Assembly (NCBI RefSeq): GCF_000427405.1
Contig: NZ_ATXY01000003.1
Coordinates: 1-64,000 of the forward strand
Direction of reading: 5' to 3'
DNA: 64,000 nucleotides
Source: Flectobacillus major DSM 103
GTDB taxonomy: Bacteria > Bacteroidota > Bacteroidia > Cytophagales > Spirosomataceae
Below are positions 55,712-62,966 of the stretch, one piece after another. Below the pieces are notes generated by a model, which did not search any database, was not told the origin of the DNA, and saw only the letters and a list, made by a program, of their open reading frames with translations. Every line of letters starts with the position of its first letter. Position 1 is the first letter of the stretch. The translations under genes and the position numbers were made by a program.

Positions 55712-56154
55712 CCACCACTTCCATACTTTTATTGAGGGAAATATTAAGGAGTTTTTTGAGCCAGTAAGCCAACAATACCCAGTAAATCAATTCAAAAACG
55801 TTGAATAATTGAAGTGGATATATTTGTAGGCAAGCAACCAAAAAAGGAATTTCTGCCAGCATGACTGCTTTAAATAGTATTGAAAAAACTACTTTACGGT
55901 CAAAGAAAAAGAAGCCTGTTTGTAGAACAAGAGTAACAAGAAAAATTTAATTAAATAAAAGCCAGACATAAGTATGATATTCATGCCCATTGATGAGACT
56001 GTTCAATAATATTATCCCTTTTTTCTACTATTAACTATTCAGATAAAAACTATAATAGAGCGTATTAGAAAGTAAAAGAGATTTATCACAAATGTTAATA
56101 TCAATGAATATATGTGGATTATAGTTGTTTGAATGTTGCAAATAAGTTTTTCAT
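55712..56154 (-). pseudogene. Decayed copy of the 232-residue membrane protein gene
   Basis: This segment matches the gene at 59603-60301 closely at DNA level, in the same orientation. It starts with the same ATG (56154), MKNLFA, but stops at about codon 12. It lacks about 120 bp inside (joining the equivalent of 59792 to 59914) and lacks the last 25 codons. It abuts the stop codon of the aldo/keto reductase gene. It is clearly non-functional and is one arm of a direct duplication around the exporter genes. Confidence 0.85.
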
Positions 56155-56167
56155 ATACACCTATAAT

Positions 56168-56341
56168 TCATTTTTTTATATCTCTATTTAATAATTGTAT
56201 TAAGGTATAAAATGAAGGTATTACTGAAATTAATATAAATACAATAACTAATTCTTTTGGAAACGTTAAGAAACCCATGATTGTTAGTATGAGTATAATA
56301 GAGAATATCAATGCTATGATGTTTAAAATTTTGAGTAGCAT
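56168..56341 (-). CDS. 57-residue membrane protein, duplicate copy
   Basis: 57 residues, starting MLLKILNIIALIFSI, with two predicted membrane helices (about 8-26 and 30-50). It differs from the copy at 60315-60488 at only four residues and has the same length. I used the start shared with the other copy; a longer in-frame start at 56392 exists. It remains open although the neighbouring copied gene is broken. No function is known. Confidence 0.55.
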   Translation of the reverse strand: MLLKILNIIALIFSIILILTIMGFLTFPKELVIVFILISVIPSFYTLIQLLNRDIKK

Positions 56342-56765
56342 GGGATGACAGTATTTACGTTTATGCCATCTGAATGTCACTGTTCTCTCCATAAAATTAT
56401 AATAATAGACACATTTAATAATATCGATTTATTTTAAATACTTATACCTGATCATAGCTAATTAAAAATACCCGTGAAACCCCATTATAGACTTAAGCTT
56501 TCTAAATATGAATGTCCTAATAGCTTTAAATTCTCATATAATTCTGATGTTGAAGCATTCTACTTTAAACAGTCATGGCATCAAACTCACTGATTCCATA
56601 CTGAGGTAAAGCCATTATTGACAATGTCAAGGATATTTTCTAATTTTTTAATACTAAGAATTGGTTTCTATAATTCGAAACCACAAAATATAATATTTCA
56701 GATACTTAGTTTTTTCTATCAATACTTTTCAAGAACTATCCCCAAAAACAATGTATTCTCATTTA
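56342..56765. other. Intergenic region with the end of the duplication
   Basis: About 420 bp. Homology to the other copy ends near 56358. I found no gene and no convincing terminator for the exporter gene that ends at 56766. Confidence 0.35.
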
Positions 56766-58928
56766 TCAAGTGTAACTAATCTGAGTATTAACAATGTTCA
56801 TCTCATATGTAATACCCTTTTCTAAAATAAAAACATTATCTGCTTTCTCGGCGATACTATTACGGTGAGTAACCATTAAAATCCCTATTTCAGATTTCAA
56901 TTTTCTGAGTAAATCAAGCACAAATTGTTCTGTTTGACCATCCATTGCAGAAGTGGCTTCATCAAGTAATAATATACTTGGCTGACTATATAAAGCTCTT
57001 GCCAAAGCGACTAATTGTTTTTGCCCTCCTGAAAGATTGATACCTTCTTCACCTACGATTGTTAAATAGTTTTGTGGAAAATTGTCAAATATTGTATCTA
57101 AACCAATTGATTTACAAAACTCTACGGCTTTTTCTCCTTCGGTTATTACATCGCCTAATATGATGTTATCAATTAATGTTCCATTGAAAATCTTAACATC
57201 TTGCGGAACAACGCCTATCTTTCCACGCCAAACATCTGGGGCTATATCATTGAATGGTAAATTATCATTGATAATTATTTCGCCCGCTTCATAATTCTGA
57301 AATTTTTGTAGAATCTGTAATAATATACTTTTTCCAGAACCCACTTCCCCTAATAATACGACCATTTTGCCTTTACCAACCGAAAGTGAAACGTTTTTTA
57401 GCAATTGACTTCTCCCTACAAAACGAAAAGATAAGTTATTGATTTTTAAAGAATTAACATATTTCAACTTTGTAATATTCCACTTCTTTTCTTTATTATT
57501 TTCCGGTTTAATACTCGCAAATTCATACATTCTTTCAAAAGCAACTTTGGCTTCTTGGAGTTGTATATTCGTTGTTGTCAGTCTCCCAACTGACCCAATC
57601 ATACCCGATGCAATGGAGATTATTGCCATCATTTCACCAATTTTGATATCTTTATGTAGCACTGCAAATGACGAAACAGATAAAATAACAGTAATTAATA
57701 GTGTATTTAAAACCTCATTCCAAAGTCCGTAGCGATTGCCTAATGTACCTAAGTCATAAACTTTTTGTTGAAAAAATTGATAATAAACCTTTCCAATTTG
57801 CCCAAACAATGATTCTTTATTCACTGCCTTAATGACAGAAATCCCTGTGATTGCATCCACAAAATGGCTTTCCGTACTAGCATATTGACTCATTACGTCT
57901 TTTTGATGTTTGATGATTCCATCATTGTATTTCCATATCAAAAAGCCAAATAATGGCAAACTCAACAAAGACAGCAAACCAACCGTTATGGAATAATTGA
58001 AAATGTAAACTGCTGAAACTAATAGAACCAATACATCTATCACAACATTGCCTGTGAGATAACTAATAACGTGTTGGATTCGGCGGGTATCGTTGAGTCT
58101 TGCGACGATTTCACCCGTTTTGCGAGTATCAAAAAATGACTTGGGAAGACGTAAGAGTTTATCATAAAAATCATCCATCAAACGATTATTAAAATCTCTA
58201 CTTTGACGAAGTAAAAAGAAACCTCTCAAATAACTCAACCCTGCCCTTGCCAATAATAAAATACACAATAAGCCCATCCCTAACCATAAACGTTGGATTT
58301 GGTGTTTGGGTAGAATTTCATCTAATAATTTCTGACTAAAGATAGCAGTAGTCATACCCAAAGCTGCTAAAACAATCCCTAAGACTACGGCAATTGAAAG
58401 CATAGGAGCATCTTCTCGTAATAAATCTTTGAACCATACAATTTTTTTATGATTATTTTGGGGGACTTTCTCAAAGGATTCTGTAGGATTCAAAATCAAA
58501 ACTGCCCTTGTTTTCCAACGATATAATAATTCTTCTTCGCTCCATGTTTCAATGCCTCTGGCTGGGTCGCCAATAATAAAATCCCCATTGGCTAATGCCT
58601 CAAAGCAAACCACATAATGTTCTAATTTTTCATCAATTACAACGTGCAGAATACAAGGAAAAGTCGCTTCTTTTTTGAAAACCCCAAGGTCATCTACTTC
58701 AAATGCCTCTGCTTGAAAATTCAGACTATTGGCTGATTGTTGTAGACCTAAAAGGCTTGTCCCTTGAATACTCGTACCACTTGATTCACGCAAGCGTTCA
58801 AGGCTACTTTCGCCTCCGTGATAGTGAATAATGGATAAAAGACAAGCTACGCCACAATCGGATTCGTCTTGTTGAAGCACAAATCTTTTGATTATATAAG
58901 ATGAGTTTGTAGAAAAATTATTTTTCAT
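56766..58928 (-). CDS. C39 peptidase-containing ABC exporter (bacteriocin type)
   Basis: 720 residues from the ATG at 58928. The N-terminal C39 peptidase has the catalytic Cys25 (QDESDCGVACL), His104 (LEHYVVCF) and Asp121 (FIIGDPARG). A six-helix membrane domain spans about 165-450. The ATPase domain has Walker A GEVGSGKSIL, signature LSGGQKQLVALARAL, Walker B ILLLDEATSAMD and the switch His in MVTHRNS. It cuts double-glycine leaders and exports the mature peptide. Two such peptides are encoded upstream at 60830-61212. No HlyD-type adaptor gene is in the window. Confidence 0.95.
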   Translation of the reverse strand: MKNNFSTNSSYIIKRFVLQQDESDCGVACLLSIIHYHGGESSLERLRESSGTSIQGTSLLGLQQSANSLNFQAEAFEVDDLGVFKKEATFPCILHVVIDEKLEHYVVCFEALANGDFIIGDPARGIETWSEEELLYRWKTRAVLILNPTESFEKVPQNNHKKIVWFKDLLREDAPMLSIAVVLGIVLAALGMTTAIFSQKLLDEILPKHQIQRLWLGMGLLCILLLARAGLSYLRGFFLLRQSRDFNNRLMDDFYDKLLRLPKSFFDTRKTGEIVARLNDTRRIQHVISYLTGNVVIDVLVLLVSAVYIFNYSITVGLLSLLSLPLFGFLIWKYNDGIIKHQKDVMSQYASTESHFVDAITGISVIKAVNKESLFGQIGKVYYQFFQQKVYDLGTLGNRYGLWNEVLNTLLITVILSVSSFAVLHKDIKIGEMMAIISIASGMIGSVGRLTTTNIQLQEAKVAFERMYEFASIKPENNKEKKWNITKLKYVNSLKINNLSFRFVGRSQLLKNVSLSVGKGKMVVLLGEVGSGKSILLQILQKFQNYEAGEIIINDNLPFNDIAPDVWRGKIGVVPQDVKIFNGTLIDNIILGDVITEGEKAVEFCKSIGLDTIFDNFPQNYLTIVGEEGINLSGGQKQLVALARALYSQPSILLLDEATSAMDGQTEQFVLDLLRKLKSEIGILMVTHRNSIAEKADNVFILEKGITYEMNIVNTQISYT

Positions 58929-59001
58929 AAATTTAGGCAAAAAGAAGGGTAAAATCCACACCAATAAGAAAGATGAGAACCTGAATTAACTTTTATATAA
59001 T

Positions 59002-59520
59002 TTATCGCTTTTGTTTAGTTTTGACATATTTCAAGAGTGCTTCCACTTTTGTTTCACCTTTAAATTCCTTTTGTAATGTATATTCATGGTCATAAATAAA
59101 AATATGAGGTATTGAAATTGAGCCAAATACTTGGGTTACTTTTTCAGCTTCGAGATATGCTAAATATGAGTGGGGATGTGTTTCTAAGGCATATTTTTTA
59201 CCAAATGTTTTGATTGAGGAACTATCCGCAAAAGAAATCCACCATAAATTTACACCCACAAATTCTTTTTGTTTTTCCGTAATAGTTTTTGCTTCATATT
59301 GGCAATGCTGACATTCTGGGTGGAAGAAAAGTACAATCGTTGAAAACTCATTTATGCTTGGTTTTTCTCCTATCCATTGAAAAGTTGAAGGCGAAGGTTG
59401 GCGTTTTATTTGCTCTACAAATTCATTTTTAGCCTTAATTTTTTGATAAGATTGATAGCCAAAATAAGTCATTATTGACAAAATGGATAATATCAGACCA
59501 AATAATAATAGTTTTTTCAT
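59002..59520 (-). CDS. Membrane-anchored thioredoxin-like protein
   Basis: 172 residues from the ATG at 59520 (a start at 59535 is also possible). One N-terminal membrane helix (LLLFGLILSILSIMTYFGY) anchors a periplasmic thioredoxin fold with the CxxC motif PECQHC and the cis-proline segment SISIPHIFIYD. It could be an oxidase or isomerase of disulfides. It lies 73 bp upstream of the exporter gene, and the peptides in this locus carry two and four cysteines, so a role in their disulfide formation is plausible. Confidence 0.82.
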   Translation of the reverse strand: MKKLLLFGLILSILSIMTYFGYQSYQKIKAKNEFVEQIKRQPSPSTFQWIGEKPSINEFSTIVLFFHPECQHCQYEAKTITEKQKEFVGVNLWWISFADSSSIKTFGKKYALETHPHSYLAYLEAEKVTQVFGSISIPHIFIYDHEYTLQKEFKGETKVEALLKYVKTKQKR

Positions 59521-59602
59521 AAGGTAGAAATTCATTCTATGGTATATGTATTTAAAAAAAACGTACTTAAATATTCCCCCTCGGGGCGATCAAACGTTTC
59601 TG

Positions 59603-60301
59603 TTAGGGGGCTATATTTATGCTCAGAAATGTTATGAATACTACCCAAAGCAAAAGCCCAGTACCATAACTAGAAGCCACCACTTCCATACTTTTATTGA
59701 GAGAAATATTAAGGAGTTTTTTGAGCCAGTAAGCCAACAATACCCAGTAAATCAATTCAAAAACGTTGAATAATTGAAGTGGATATATTTGCCAAGTAGA
59801 CAGACTTTTGACATCAAATAATTGTAAAGCTGAAAGAGGAAAAAAATATTGTAAATCGTTTAAAGTATAGTGCGTTTGGATAAATAAAAACCAAAATAGT
59901 TTAATAACAGGAACAACCAAAAAAGGAATTTCTGCCAGCATGACTGCTTTAAATAGTATTGAAAAACCTACTTTACGGTCAAAGAAAAAGAAGCCTGTTT
60001 GTAAAATAAGGGTAACAAGTGTAAATTTAATTAAATAAATAAAAGCCAGACATAAGTATGATATCCATGCCCATTTATGAGACTGTTCAATAATATTTTC
60101 AATTTTTTCAATAGTTAACTGTTCAGATAAAGAGTTATAATAGAGTGTATTAGAAAGTAAAAAAAAATTTATCGCAAATGTTAACATCCATGAATAAATA
60201 ATTAAACCAATGTATATATATCTATTTTTAAGAGTACGTAAATAAATCATTGAATATCGGGGAGTTATATTTTTTTTGAGTACTGCAAATAAATTTTTCA
60301 T
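59603..60301 (-). CDS. Multi-spanning membrane protein of the peptide locus
   Basis: 232 residues from the ATG at 60301 (a GTG two codons earlier is in frame). I do not recognise the family. About five hydrophobic segments are visible: near residues 28-48, 75-100, 115-140, 165-190 and 212-230. It lies 82 bp upstream of the thioredoxin-like gene and 13 bp after the small membrane protein gene, all on one strand. A decayed copy exists at 55712-56154. By position it may serve export or self-immunity. Confidence 0.75.
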   Translation of the reverse strand: MKNLFAVLKKNITPRYSMIYLRTLKNRYIYIGLIIYSWMLTFAINFFLLSNTLYYNSLSEQLTIEKIENIIEQSHKWAWISYLCLAFIYLIKFTLVTLILQTGFFFFDRKVGFSILFKAVMLAEIPFLVVPVIKLFWFLFIQTHYTLNDLQYFFPLSALQLFDVKSLSTWQIYPLQLFNVFELIYWVLLAYWLKKLLNISLNKSMEVVASSYGTGLLLWVVFITFLSINIAP

Positions 60302-60314
60302 ATACACATATAAT

Positions 60315-60488
60315 TCATTTTTTTATATTTCCATTTAATAGTTGTATTAAGGTATAAAATGAAGGTATTACTGAAATCAATATAAATACAATAACAAATT
60401 CTTTTGGAAATTTCAAGAAGCCCATGATTGTTAGTATGAGTATAATAGAGAATATCAATGCTATGATGTTTAAAATTTTGAGTAACAT
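60315..60488 (-). CDS. 57-residue membrane protein
   Basis: 57 residues with two membrane helices and a short basic C-terminus (GNIKK). It is preserved in a second copy at 56168-56341 with four substitutions. It precedes the 232-residue membrane protein by 13 bp, which suggests co-translation. Small two-helix proteins in bacteriocin loci are often immunity proteins; this is inference only. A TACTTTTG element lies 69 bp upstream. Confidence 0.6.
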   Translation of the reverse strand: MLLKILNIIALIFSIILILTIMGFLKFPKEFVIVFILISVIPSFYTLIQLLNGNIKK

Positions 60489-60829: not shown

Positions 60830-61009
60830 TTATCCGCAAACATAGACTGCGGCACCGCAAGCTGCGACAGCCCGCAAGCCAGGGATTATAACCGCTGGAG
60901 TCCAGCCAACTGCAATTGTAGCACCAACGGCTGCACCGCATCCAAGACCAGCAAAAAAGCACCCCCATCCCCCACCATTGATTCTTTCAAGATTTTCTAT
61001 TTTTTTCAT
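60830..61009 (-). CDS. Double-glycine peptide B (class IIb bacteriocin-like)
   Basis: 59 residues from the ATG at 61009. The leader MKKIENLERINGG has hydrophobic residues at -7 and -4 and GG at -2/-1. The 46-residue core is hydrophobic, with cysteines at 4, 11, 38 and 45, W23-x-P25 in the middle, and GAAVG (GxxxG). It aligns without gaps with peptide A, sharing C4, G16, A20, W23, P25, G31, A40, Y43 and C45. The extra C11 and C38 are each seven positions inside the outer pair. It follows peptide A by 17 bp. Confidence 0.85.
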   Translation of the reverse strand: MKKIENLERINGGGWGCFFAGLGCGAAVGATIAVGWTPAVIIPGLRAVAACGAAVYVCG

Positions 61010-61026
61010 GATTTTCAATTGTTATA

Positions 61027-61212
61027 TTATTTACAAAAATACGCACCAGCTAAACCGACAGTTCCAACAACTCCTCCCAAAGCCCAACCTATTGGATTCC
61101 AAGAATTTGCCAGAATAATACCTGCAGAACCCACAACCATTCCCATTACTAAACTGCACCTATCACTTCCTCCATGTAAATGCTCAATGTTCAATGTCTC
61201 TAATTTTTTCAT
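61027..61212 (-). CDS. Double-glycine peptide A (class IIb bacteriocin-like)
   Basis: 61 residues. The leader MKKLETLNIEHLHGG fits the consensus with L at -12, I at -7, L at -4 and GG. The 46-residue core has cysteines only at positions 4 and 45, a central WNP turn (23-25) and several glycine pairs four apart (GMVVG, GGVVG). These are typical of two-peptide bacteriocins that pack helices in membranes. It is encoded directly upstream of peptide B and downstream of a glycosyltransferase gene. Processing by the C39 exporter at 56766 is expected. Confidence 0.87.
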   Translation of the reverse strand: MKKLETLNIEHLHGGSDRCSLVMGMVVGSAGIILANSWNPIGWALGGVVGTVGLAGAYFCK

Positions 61213-61272: not shown

Positions 61273-62613
61273 CTACTGAACTAAAAGTTCAGTGGAGAAA
61301 AAATCTTCTAAAAAACTTTCATTACTATATTTCTCATATAATACTTCACTGAATATTTGTGTTTTCTGTTGATAAATGGGGTTGTTTAATAACTCATTAA
61401 TCGTGTTCTCAATGGCTTTCTTACTATCCTTTAGCTTTGCCTTTATACCCAAACCATGATAAACTACTCGTGCAGTATTGCCATTCTGATCCCATTTATT
61501 ATTAAGTGGTACAAGCAACATTGGTACGCCAGCGTAGGCACTTTCCAAAACAGAATTTAAACCTCCATGCGTTATAAAAACATTCACTTCTTTTAATAAG
61601 CCTCTTTGTGGTACGGTTTCTAAAATTTTTATATGTTTTGAGGCTGTTTTGAGGTTGTTTTTTAATTCTTTCCCAACGGATAATATCAAATAACAATTGT
61701 TATCTTTTTCAAAAATAGAGCATAATTTCTCGAAAAAATGTGCTGATTTACCCTTCGTATGTACATTATGTAAAGTACCTAATGATGCGTAAATAATCTT
61801 TTTATTTTGGCTTTTAGCGTTGTTTACAAAATTTTGTAAATTATCAGGAAGTATTTGTTTTTGGGTGTCGGTCATTAAGCCTAAATAGTGCTGATTAGTA
61901 TTTTTTGGTTTGCCCAAAAATTCTATTTCCTGAGGTGCTAAAACCCATTCTTCAATACTTTGAAACCCTACATGAAATACTTTATCATCAATGATAGCAT
62001 ATTTTTTTAAAATATGATTCTGCTTGAATTTTCGTTTGATAAGTAATGAATTACTCAACCCTAAAAAACGAATCAAATCAAAGCTTTGTGATAAGGCACG
62101 TTTTATCTTCATTTTTTGCCATGCTATCTTTACTTTATTGGCATTATCAGGCAAAATAAAAGTATTCAAAGGTGGTGTAAAACCGTCATTATAAGGCGAA
62201 AGCATAGTTTGGACAAAAACTAATTTAATGACACTTTGTCTAATGAGTGATTCTATTAGAATAAAGTCTGTGCTATAAAAAGAATCAACCAAAATTAGGT
62301 CAGGCTGATATTTGTTTAACCATTTCTCATAATCTTTCTTGCGTTCATTATAACTCAAATCTTGAAATCTATCCAATAGACTTTCCAAATAGGGGCTACT
62401 GGTATTTTCATATTGCATATCCTCTAAACCAAGCCCAAAAGGTTTACTTTGAGATAATACTAACTCAAAGCCATTTTTGATGATGACCTCTCTAAATTCA
62501 GGCGTTGAGGCAAAAACACAGCGATAGCCTAATTTCTGTAAGCATTGGGCTAATTTTATAGTTGGGTTTAAATGCCCCCACGCAGGGAGCATACTGAAAA
62601 ATGCCGTTTTCAT
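61273..62613 (-). CDS. GT1/MGT-type glycosyltransferase
   Basis: 446 residues of the UDP-glucosyl/glucuronosyl-transferase superfamily. The N-terminal acceptor domain starts MKTAFFSMLPAWGHLNP with the catalytic-type His. The C-terminal donor domain has the sugar-nucleotide motif ITHGGLNSVLESAYAGVPMLLVPLNNKWDQNGNTARV. Known members glycosylate small molecules such as macrolides, flavonoids, sterols and carotenoids. Here it sits between a helix-turn-helix gene (38 bp upstream) and the two bacteriocin-like peptides (60 bp downstream), so a peptide or a co-made lipid could be the acceptor. Confidence 0.88.
   Translation of the reverse strand: MKTAFFSMLPAWGHLNPTIKLAQCLQKLGYRCVFASTPEFREVIIKNGFELVLSQSKPFGLGLEDMQYENTSSPYLESLLDRFQDLSYNERKKDYEKWLNKYQPDLILVDSFYSTDFILIESLIRQSVIKLVFVQTMLSPYNDGFTPPLNTFILPDNANKVKIAWQKMKIKRALSQSFDLIRFLGLSNSLLIKRKFKQNHILKKYAIIDDKVFHVGFQSIEEWVLAPQEIEFLGKPKNTNQHYLGLMTDTQKQILPDNLQNFVNNAKSQNKKIIYASLGTLHNVHTKGKSAHFFEKLCSIFEKDNNCYLILSVGKELKNNLKTASKHIKILETVPQRGLLKEVNVFITHGGLNSVLESAYAGVPMLLVPLNNKWDQNGNTARVVYHGLGIKAKLKDSKKAIENTINELLNNPIYQQKTQIFSEVLYEKYSNESFLEDFFSTELLVQ
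61275..61293 (-). other. Hairpin at the glycosyltransferase stop codon
   Basis: Seen: ACTGAACT and AGTTCAGT around AAA, a 19-bp perfect stem-loop overlapping the stop codon. A near-copy lies at the 3' end of the preceding gene (62645-62665). Confidence 0.55.
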
Positions 62614-62644: not shown

Positions 62645-62665
62645 CACTGAATTAAAAGTTCAGTG
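62645..62665 (-). other. Hairpin at the 3' end of the helix-turn-helix gene
   Basis: Seen: CACTGAATT and AGTTCAGTG around AAA, one wobble, overlapping the stop codon. The flanking 40 bp also resemble those of the hairpin at 61275-61293. They may be processing or attenuation structures within one transcript. Confidence 0.5.
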
Positions 62666-62966
62666 AAAAAAAATTTCTAAAATAAATTACCGAGGATGTT
62701 CTACCACCATTCAAATTAGCGGTTTCTTGTTTGGAGAGTTTACGGAAGCCTATTTCAAAAGATCCCTCTTCGGTATAAACATAACTTCGGGTATATGGGC
62801 AGTAGTCAATAGGGAGGTGCAAATCATTGACTAATTCATCACGGAATTTATACCATGCTCGTTCAGTGATACCCAATTTTTGGGCAAGCTCTTTAGGAGT
62901 TCCTGTAGCTTTTTGTTTGATAAGTTTATCTAAGTAATTTAGGCGTTGACAAATTTTCCAAAGCAT
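62652..62966 (-). CDS. Helix-turn-helix protein ending in a double-glycine leader
   Basis: 104 residues. Residues 8-65 form a small winged or helix-turn-helix domain (KATGTPKELAQKLGITERAWYKFRDEL) of a type often found beside Bacteroidota bacteriocin genes. Residues 77-88 read LSKQETANLNGG, matching the C39 leader consensus: L at -12, S at -11, E at -8, L at -4, GG at -2/-1. A 16-residue tail without cysteine follows (89-104). It is first in the gene order of the peptide locus. Whether the exporter cuts it is untested; if so, the tail could be a signal peptide. Confidence 0.75.
   Translation of the reverse strand: MLWKICQRLNYLDKLIKQKATGTPKELAQKLGITERAWYKFRDELVNDLHLPIDYCPYTRSYVYTEEGSFEIGFRKLSKQETANLNGGRTSSVIYFRNFFSLNF

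Follow-up and report, generated by a model that had tools for sequence, protein, structure and literature searches.

The 64,000-nucleotide stretch of Flectobacillus major DSM 103 analysed here (the window) carries on its minus strand a series of genes which, in order of transcription, encode an HTH protein, a GT1-like glycosyltransferase, two short precursor peptides (A and B), a small membrane protein (SM57), a larger membrane protein (MEM234), a thioredoxin-like protein and a C39 exporter (Table 1). As the original prediction stated, A and B are adjacent double-glycine (GG) peptides with cores of 46 residues. Both begin with ATG; in the case of B this is the ATG at 61009, the listed TTG start at 61018 being superfluous, and 17 bases separate the stop of A from the start of B. 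With two adjacent GG-leader precursor genes and a C39 exporter, the window has the layout of class IIb bacteriocin loci.

Table 1. Features of the peptide locus in the window.
Feature	Coordinates	Strand	Notes
HTH protein, optional neighbour, possible regulator	62652..62966	(-)	leader-like C-terminal end
41-nt repeat, inverted repeat CTGAACT..AGTTCAG	62646-62686		at 3' end of HTH gene
GT1-like glycosyltransferase, optional neighbour directly upstream of A	61273..62613	(-)	Pfam UDPGT 9.8e-17; in 9/81 loci
41-nt repeat, inverted repeat CTGAACT..AGTTCAG	61275-61315		at 3' end of glycosyltransferase gene
Peptide A precursor	61027..61212	(-)	leader MKKLETLNIEHLHGG; 15-aa GG leader + 46-aa core; Cys 4/45; NSWNPIGW turn
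Peptide B precursor	60830..61009	(-)	leader MKKIENLERINGG; 13-aa GG leader + 46-aa core; Cys 4/11/38/45
SM57, 57-aa strongly hydrophobic membrane ORF, candidate immunity protein	60315..60488	(-)	assigned by position and size
MEM234, ~230-aa membrane protein, family unclassified	59603..60301	(-)	phylum-wide partner of thioredoxin + C39
Membrane-anchored thioredoxin-like protein, CQHC	59002..59535	(-)	Pfam AhpC-TSA 1.6e-6
C39 peptidase-containing ABC exporter	56766..58964	(-)	Pfam Peptidase_C39 3.5e-29; TIGR01193 bacteriocin_ABC 5e-115, under curated cut-off
SM57 second copy, open frame	56168..56392	(-)	repeat at 92-93% identity
MEM234 second copy, decayed, internal stops	55712..56093	(-)	duplicate

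The landmarks first assigned to the two cores, Cys4, Cys45, W23-x-P25 and Tyr43, are all found at those positions, and the GxxxG motifs are as claimed. The additional Cys11 and Cys38 of B form an inner pair nested within Cys4/Cys45, again as described. The claim that the cores align without gaps stands in part, as this alignment reflects mainly the equal length together with the Cys, Trp and Pro residues. Ungapped identity is 9 of 46 residues, and a BLOSUM permutation of the alignment gives p=0.011, rising to p=0.12 once the two Cys columns common to A and B are left out, so the gapless similarity beyond Cys is not significant. As judged from the sequences, the equal length and the common landmarks of A and B are genuine, and clear paralogy of the two is not supported.

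The locus does contain the CxxC thioredoxin-like gene and the C39 exporter that had been reported beside the peptides. The thioredoxin-like protein is of the ResA/AhpC-TSA type with an N-terminal anchor, and it has no match to the NCBIfam PedC/BrcD model. For MEM234, an alternative GTG start would extend the frame to 60307. Neither MEM234 nor SM57 scores above cut-off against the Pfam and NCBIfam profiles, and the same searches with A and B returned nothing above cut-off, including no bacteriocin family; a comparison of A and B with PF10439 (Bacteriocin_IIc) likewise gave no match. A comparison of the MEM234 fold with the PDB gave six Foldseek matches, none significant, and the best VIA-align Z, 2.8, was uninformative. 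Downstream of the C39 gene (55712-56392) lies a duplicate of the MEM234-SM57 block, 90-99% identical, in which MEM234 is broken and SM57 is open. At its C-terminal end the HTH protein has a leader-like sequence, KLSKQETANLNGG, followed by a short tail, and its relatives adjoin several other cassettes.

Homology searches with A or B within the family gave weak matches only, the sister species excepted, and no homologues were found in viral contigs. Relatives were located with MEM234 as the anchor, after the A/B searches had yielded little. Within the family Spirosomaceae, 30 of the 222 genomes contain MEM234, and when named genomes were scanned, 80 of the 122 loci obtained were kept. The MEM234 loci span Cytophagia, Flavobacteriia, Sphingobacteriia, Chitinophagia and Bacteroidia, with one Kapaibacterium genome. 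When 81 loci were clustered without prior selection of families, the only widely recurring families were MEM234 itself (81), the C39 exporter (77) and the thioredoxin (74), nearly all on the same strand; several of the absences of thioredoxin or exporter are due to contig ends. CxxC is present in all 70 matched thioredoxin relatives with a readable motif, and two loci, L077 and L078, encode two-Cys peptides with no thioredoxin match. Across the 81 loci no HlyD- or TolC-like gene, such as the membrane-fusion protein gene of the tripartite type I secretion of class II microcins, is conserved beside the exporter, and no conserved sensor kinase or receptor gene belongs to the cassette. The sister species Flectobacillus longus has the same operon order, including the upstream glycosyltransferase, and a 65% identical SM57, with different peptides of 51 and 61 residues that carry Cys 11/39 and 7/48. 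The cassette is widespread in Gram-negative Bacteroidota and apparently unnamed, a literature search of incomplete coverage having found no account of it. A 61-kb plasmid of Flammeovirga pectinis (NZ_CP034564.1) carries a MEM234-thioredoxin-ABC cassette whose neighbours include transposase genes, a LanC-family gene and a glycosyltransferase; public annotation lists its MEM234 as 'hypothetical protein' and its thioredoxin as 'redoxin domain-containing protein'. This is the single plasmid relative, and a viral or mobile origin of the cassette is unsupported.

The peptides encoded at these loci, chosen by leader features alone, share a simple design. Among the 127 peptide clusters encoded on the cassette strand, 102 (80%) have exactly two Cys, where composition would predict 27%. 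These Cys are placed near the ends of a hydrophobic core, spanning on average 0.74 of it compared with 0.35 for random placement. Where Pro lies between the Cys residues, 73% falls in the central 30% of the interval, against 30% of Gly and Ala. The control consisted of 40 further C39 loci from the same family, with neither MEM234 nor the thioredoxin. Their 27 GG-peptide clusters contain 0, 1, 4 or 6 Cys and in no case two (102/127 vs 0/27, Fisher p about 5e-16), and they are not hydrophobic, with a median GRAVY of -0.13 as compared with 0.95 for the cassette cores. The absence of the two-Cys design beside other C39 exporters ties the staple to this cassette rather than to C39 exporters generally. 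The original prediction, which took a lack of homologues with the same spacing to count against it, holds up here, since comparable Cys spacing does exist beside the same exporter and thioredoxin.

Ten cassette peptides, B included, contain four Cys, and the nesting described for B recurs: exactly symmetric pairs are seen in B, L080, L106 and both peptides of L160, where a spacing of seven residues from inner to outer Cys is frequent in both arms. The significance of this symmetry, at a combined p of about 6e-5, is inflated by related, not fully independent members. Symmetric Cys placement is what a pair of antiparallel helices would need if held together by one rung or two. The W-x-P turn, by comparison, does not extend to the family. 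Relatives of core A were found in the same cassette in distant Bacteroidota, L152 (3.6e-5) and L128 (1.2e-4), where the turn of A recurs as NWWNPIGW and NWWNPVGW, respectively. WxP is nevertheless present in just 7 of 100 cassette peptides, and the pattern C-x18-W-x-P-x19-C, which had been proposed for profile searches, was rejected as a family signature; the general signature is instead Cys / central Pro / Cys.

Structure prediction bears on the same point. AF2 was run on core B with a two-sequence alignment of B and A alone; a multi-sequence core alignment was discarded, as MAFFT had misaligned the cores. The resulting model is a two-helix hairpin (helices 2-21 and 25-45, turn G22-W23-T24, mean pLDDT 83), which agrees with the earlier proposal of a helical hairpin joined at W23-x-P25 and with the family-wide placement of Cys near the ends and Pro midway. 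In Foldseek searches the model aligns with designed antiparallel helical proteins over 42-43 of 46 residues at a TM of about 0.7; the E values are not significant, and we read the model as a compact, generic hairpin. As a structural hypothesis built on prediction, the stapled hairpin is well supported.

The closest precedent is gallocin A of Streptococcus gallolyticus (GllA1/GllA2, BlpT, GIP), in which two adjacent GG-leader peptides of low charge, 42 and 60 aa when mature, each carry two Cys and form helical hairpins (PMC10100652). LC-MS confirmed the inter-helix disulfide and reducing agents abolished it, killing depends on a thioredoxin-domain protein, the immunity peptide is short and hairpin-like, and the bacteriocin is assigned to Pfam Bacteriocin_IIc (PMC10100652). 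The window has the corresponding parts: an adjacent GG pair, Cys near each core end (4/45 in A; 4/45 plus the inner pair in B), an antiparallel helical hairpin as the predicted fold of core B and a thioredoxin-domain protein in the locus. SM57 is a candidate for the immunity protein. Gallocin A differs in being Gram-positive, in lacking MEM234, in having a surface-located thioredoxin, and in having two Cys per peptide rather than four and unequal peptide lengths; no sequence relation to A or B was detected. Thermophilin 13, brochocin C and ABP-118 were named in that study as likely similar, their disulfides being only modelled (PMC10100652). In each of them, as in the cassette peptides, both peptides carry two Cys close to the two termini and have hairpin models, but these bacteriocins are Gram-positive and lie in a different gene neighbourhood. 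Since the staple is documented for gallocin A and modelled for these three (PMC10100652), class IIb-type peptides that carry it are less rare than had been claimed when the cysteine ladder of B was first remarked upon.

Other known systems are related in part. PedC/BrcD-type disulfide isomerases also stand as thioredoxin-like accessories beside disulfide-bearing class II bacteriocins (PMC4919988, PMC13289728), from which the anchored, ResA/AhpC-TSA-like protein of the window differs. Bacteriocin_IIc matches 26 of 114 cassette peptides weakly to clearly at E<=0.01 (best 1.1e-8; ~1 expected by chance), A and B not among them, and part of the cassette family is, from these profile matches, probably a distant branch of that family or convergent with it. 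Class II bacteriocins have been predicted across Bacteroidota by genome mining with IIBacFinder in 2025; the accessible part of that account does not describe this cassette, the hairpin staple or MEM234 (PMC12648078). We consider that A and B together probably, at odds of roughly two in three, constitute a bacteriocin resembling gallocin A, in which both peptides are helical hairpins stapled by disulfides.

The pairing of the peptides is the point on which this reading is most directly met by another, namely that A and B are two separate single-peptide bacteriocins, which use the same exporter and thioredoxin, act on their own and each have an immunity protein. The numbers of peptides are what one would expect of such a system, with one to four per cassette locus; partners are mostly dissimilar, and the 51- and 61-residue peptides of the sister species are not a matched pair. 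On the other hand, exactly equal lengths occur in 7 of 24 adjacent cassette pairs, against 0.94 expected by re-pairing, and the count holds when one member of a related pair is dropped and the window pair is added (7/24 vs 0.90). This excess suggests, at the level of sequence, that partners are matched, and the window pair is followed by a single small membrane ORF rather than by two. Independent action is therefore unlikely, although it keeps appreciable weight. Because many loci have one, three or four peptides, and most are without equal-length partners, strict two-peptide cooperation is not general; two-peptide action is likely in the window, and these counts do not establish it for the cassette as a whole.

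The peptides might also be secreted signals, or agents that act on the producer's own envelope instead of on competitors. C39 exporters also export pheromones, and the lack of an outer-membrane export component in the cassette would suit such a role. The cores are, however, long, highly hydrophobic and highly diverse in sequence, no conserved sensor or receptor accompanies them in the 81 loci, and both the small candidate immunity ORFs and the Bacteriocin_IIc matches point away from signalling, which makes this explanation improbable. Glycosylation of A and B by the neighbouring enzyme, as in glycocins, is more improbable still: the GT1-like gene lies directly upstream in both the window and the sister species, but a glycosyltransferase occurs in only 9 of 81 loci whereas the Cys design is general, and the GT1/macrolide type is not one that glycocins are known to use. 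That A and B are chance hydrophobic frames with coincidental Cys, as their short length and low-complexity composition might suggest, is hardly credible given the good GG leaders, the operon position, the conserved cassette and the homologues, and the comparative data already contradict it.

Under the stapled two-peptide reading, the C39 exporter, whose peptidase domain is intact, would cleave behind the GG leaders and export both cores to the periplasm. There the membrane-anchored CxxC thioredoxin may help to form or to correct disulfides, acting presumably in either the oxidase or the isomerase direction. A would acquire one disulfide (4-45) and B two nested ones (4-45 and 11-38), a geometry consistent with the prediction and with the family-wide placement of Cys and Pro. 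Each core would fold as two hydrophobic, Gly/Ala-rich helices lying back to back with the turn at W-x-P, and the pair could then insert into and permeabilise the membrane of susceptible, probably related, bacteria, as gallocin A leads us to expect.

SM57, from its place and size, may protect the producer. In 36 of 67 loci, small ORFs with at least two hydrophobic segments are situated between the peptide genes and that of MEM234, while the same class is found on the opposite strand in 3 of 67 and further upstream in 6. Orphan immunity genes are common in bacteriocin loci, and the second SM57 copy, downstream of the C39 gene and beside the decayed MEM234, resembles them. Two other roles for MEM234 were set aside. 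It is conserved phylum-wide while the peptides vary, which favours an invariable component of the machinery for export or maturation over an immunity protein, and none of its invariant or nearly invariant columns holds a Cys, which counts against re-oxidation of the thioredoxin in the manner of DsbB.

The stapled-hairpin idea itself is not new, gallocin A (2023) being a close precedent; what is new is the extent of the cassette across a Gram-negative phylum, the ladder of four Cys, the constant partnership of MEM234 and the excess of equal-length pairs. A larger proposal, which we regard as tentative and doubtful as a whole, is that these form a phylum-wide Bacteroidota system of stapled, membrane-inserting hairpins in which MEM234 would be a new kind of membrane partner of C39 exporter and thioredoxin, and in which length-matched partners with one- or two-rung ladders would assemble into a matched four-helix membrane lesion, with no dedicated outer-membrane export component. 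If the stapled-hairpin reading of the cassette is right, a design that a 2023 study described for one bacteriocin of streptococci would be widely found across a Gram-negative phylum that inhabits soils, waters, seas and guts, accompanied by its own oxidative-folding protein and by a conserved membrane protein of unclassified family. This reading also raises the question of how hydrophobic peptides cross the outer membranes of producer and target. The analysis yields >100 candidate peptides, and the MEM234-thioredoxin-C39 cassette offers a simple finder for more.

Cys-rich GG peptides of other kinds were also seen. At six other Spirosomaceae C39 loci (L191, L199, L201, L205, L227 and L228) the GG peptides have either 4 Cys or 6, and a conserved WCC-x-SCG(S)-type motif stands at the end of some of them; they differ from the cassette peptides and seem to make up a family of their own. 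One Bacteroidales genome (L125:8311-9577) has a pair of GG peptides downstream of its cassette, the first with 5 Cys and the second with 9; the latter is a Cys-rich CTxGxCT-like repeat peptide.
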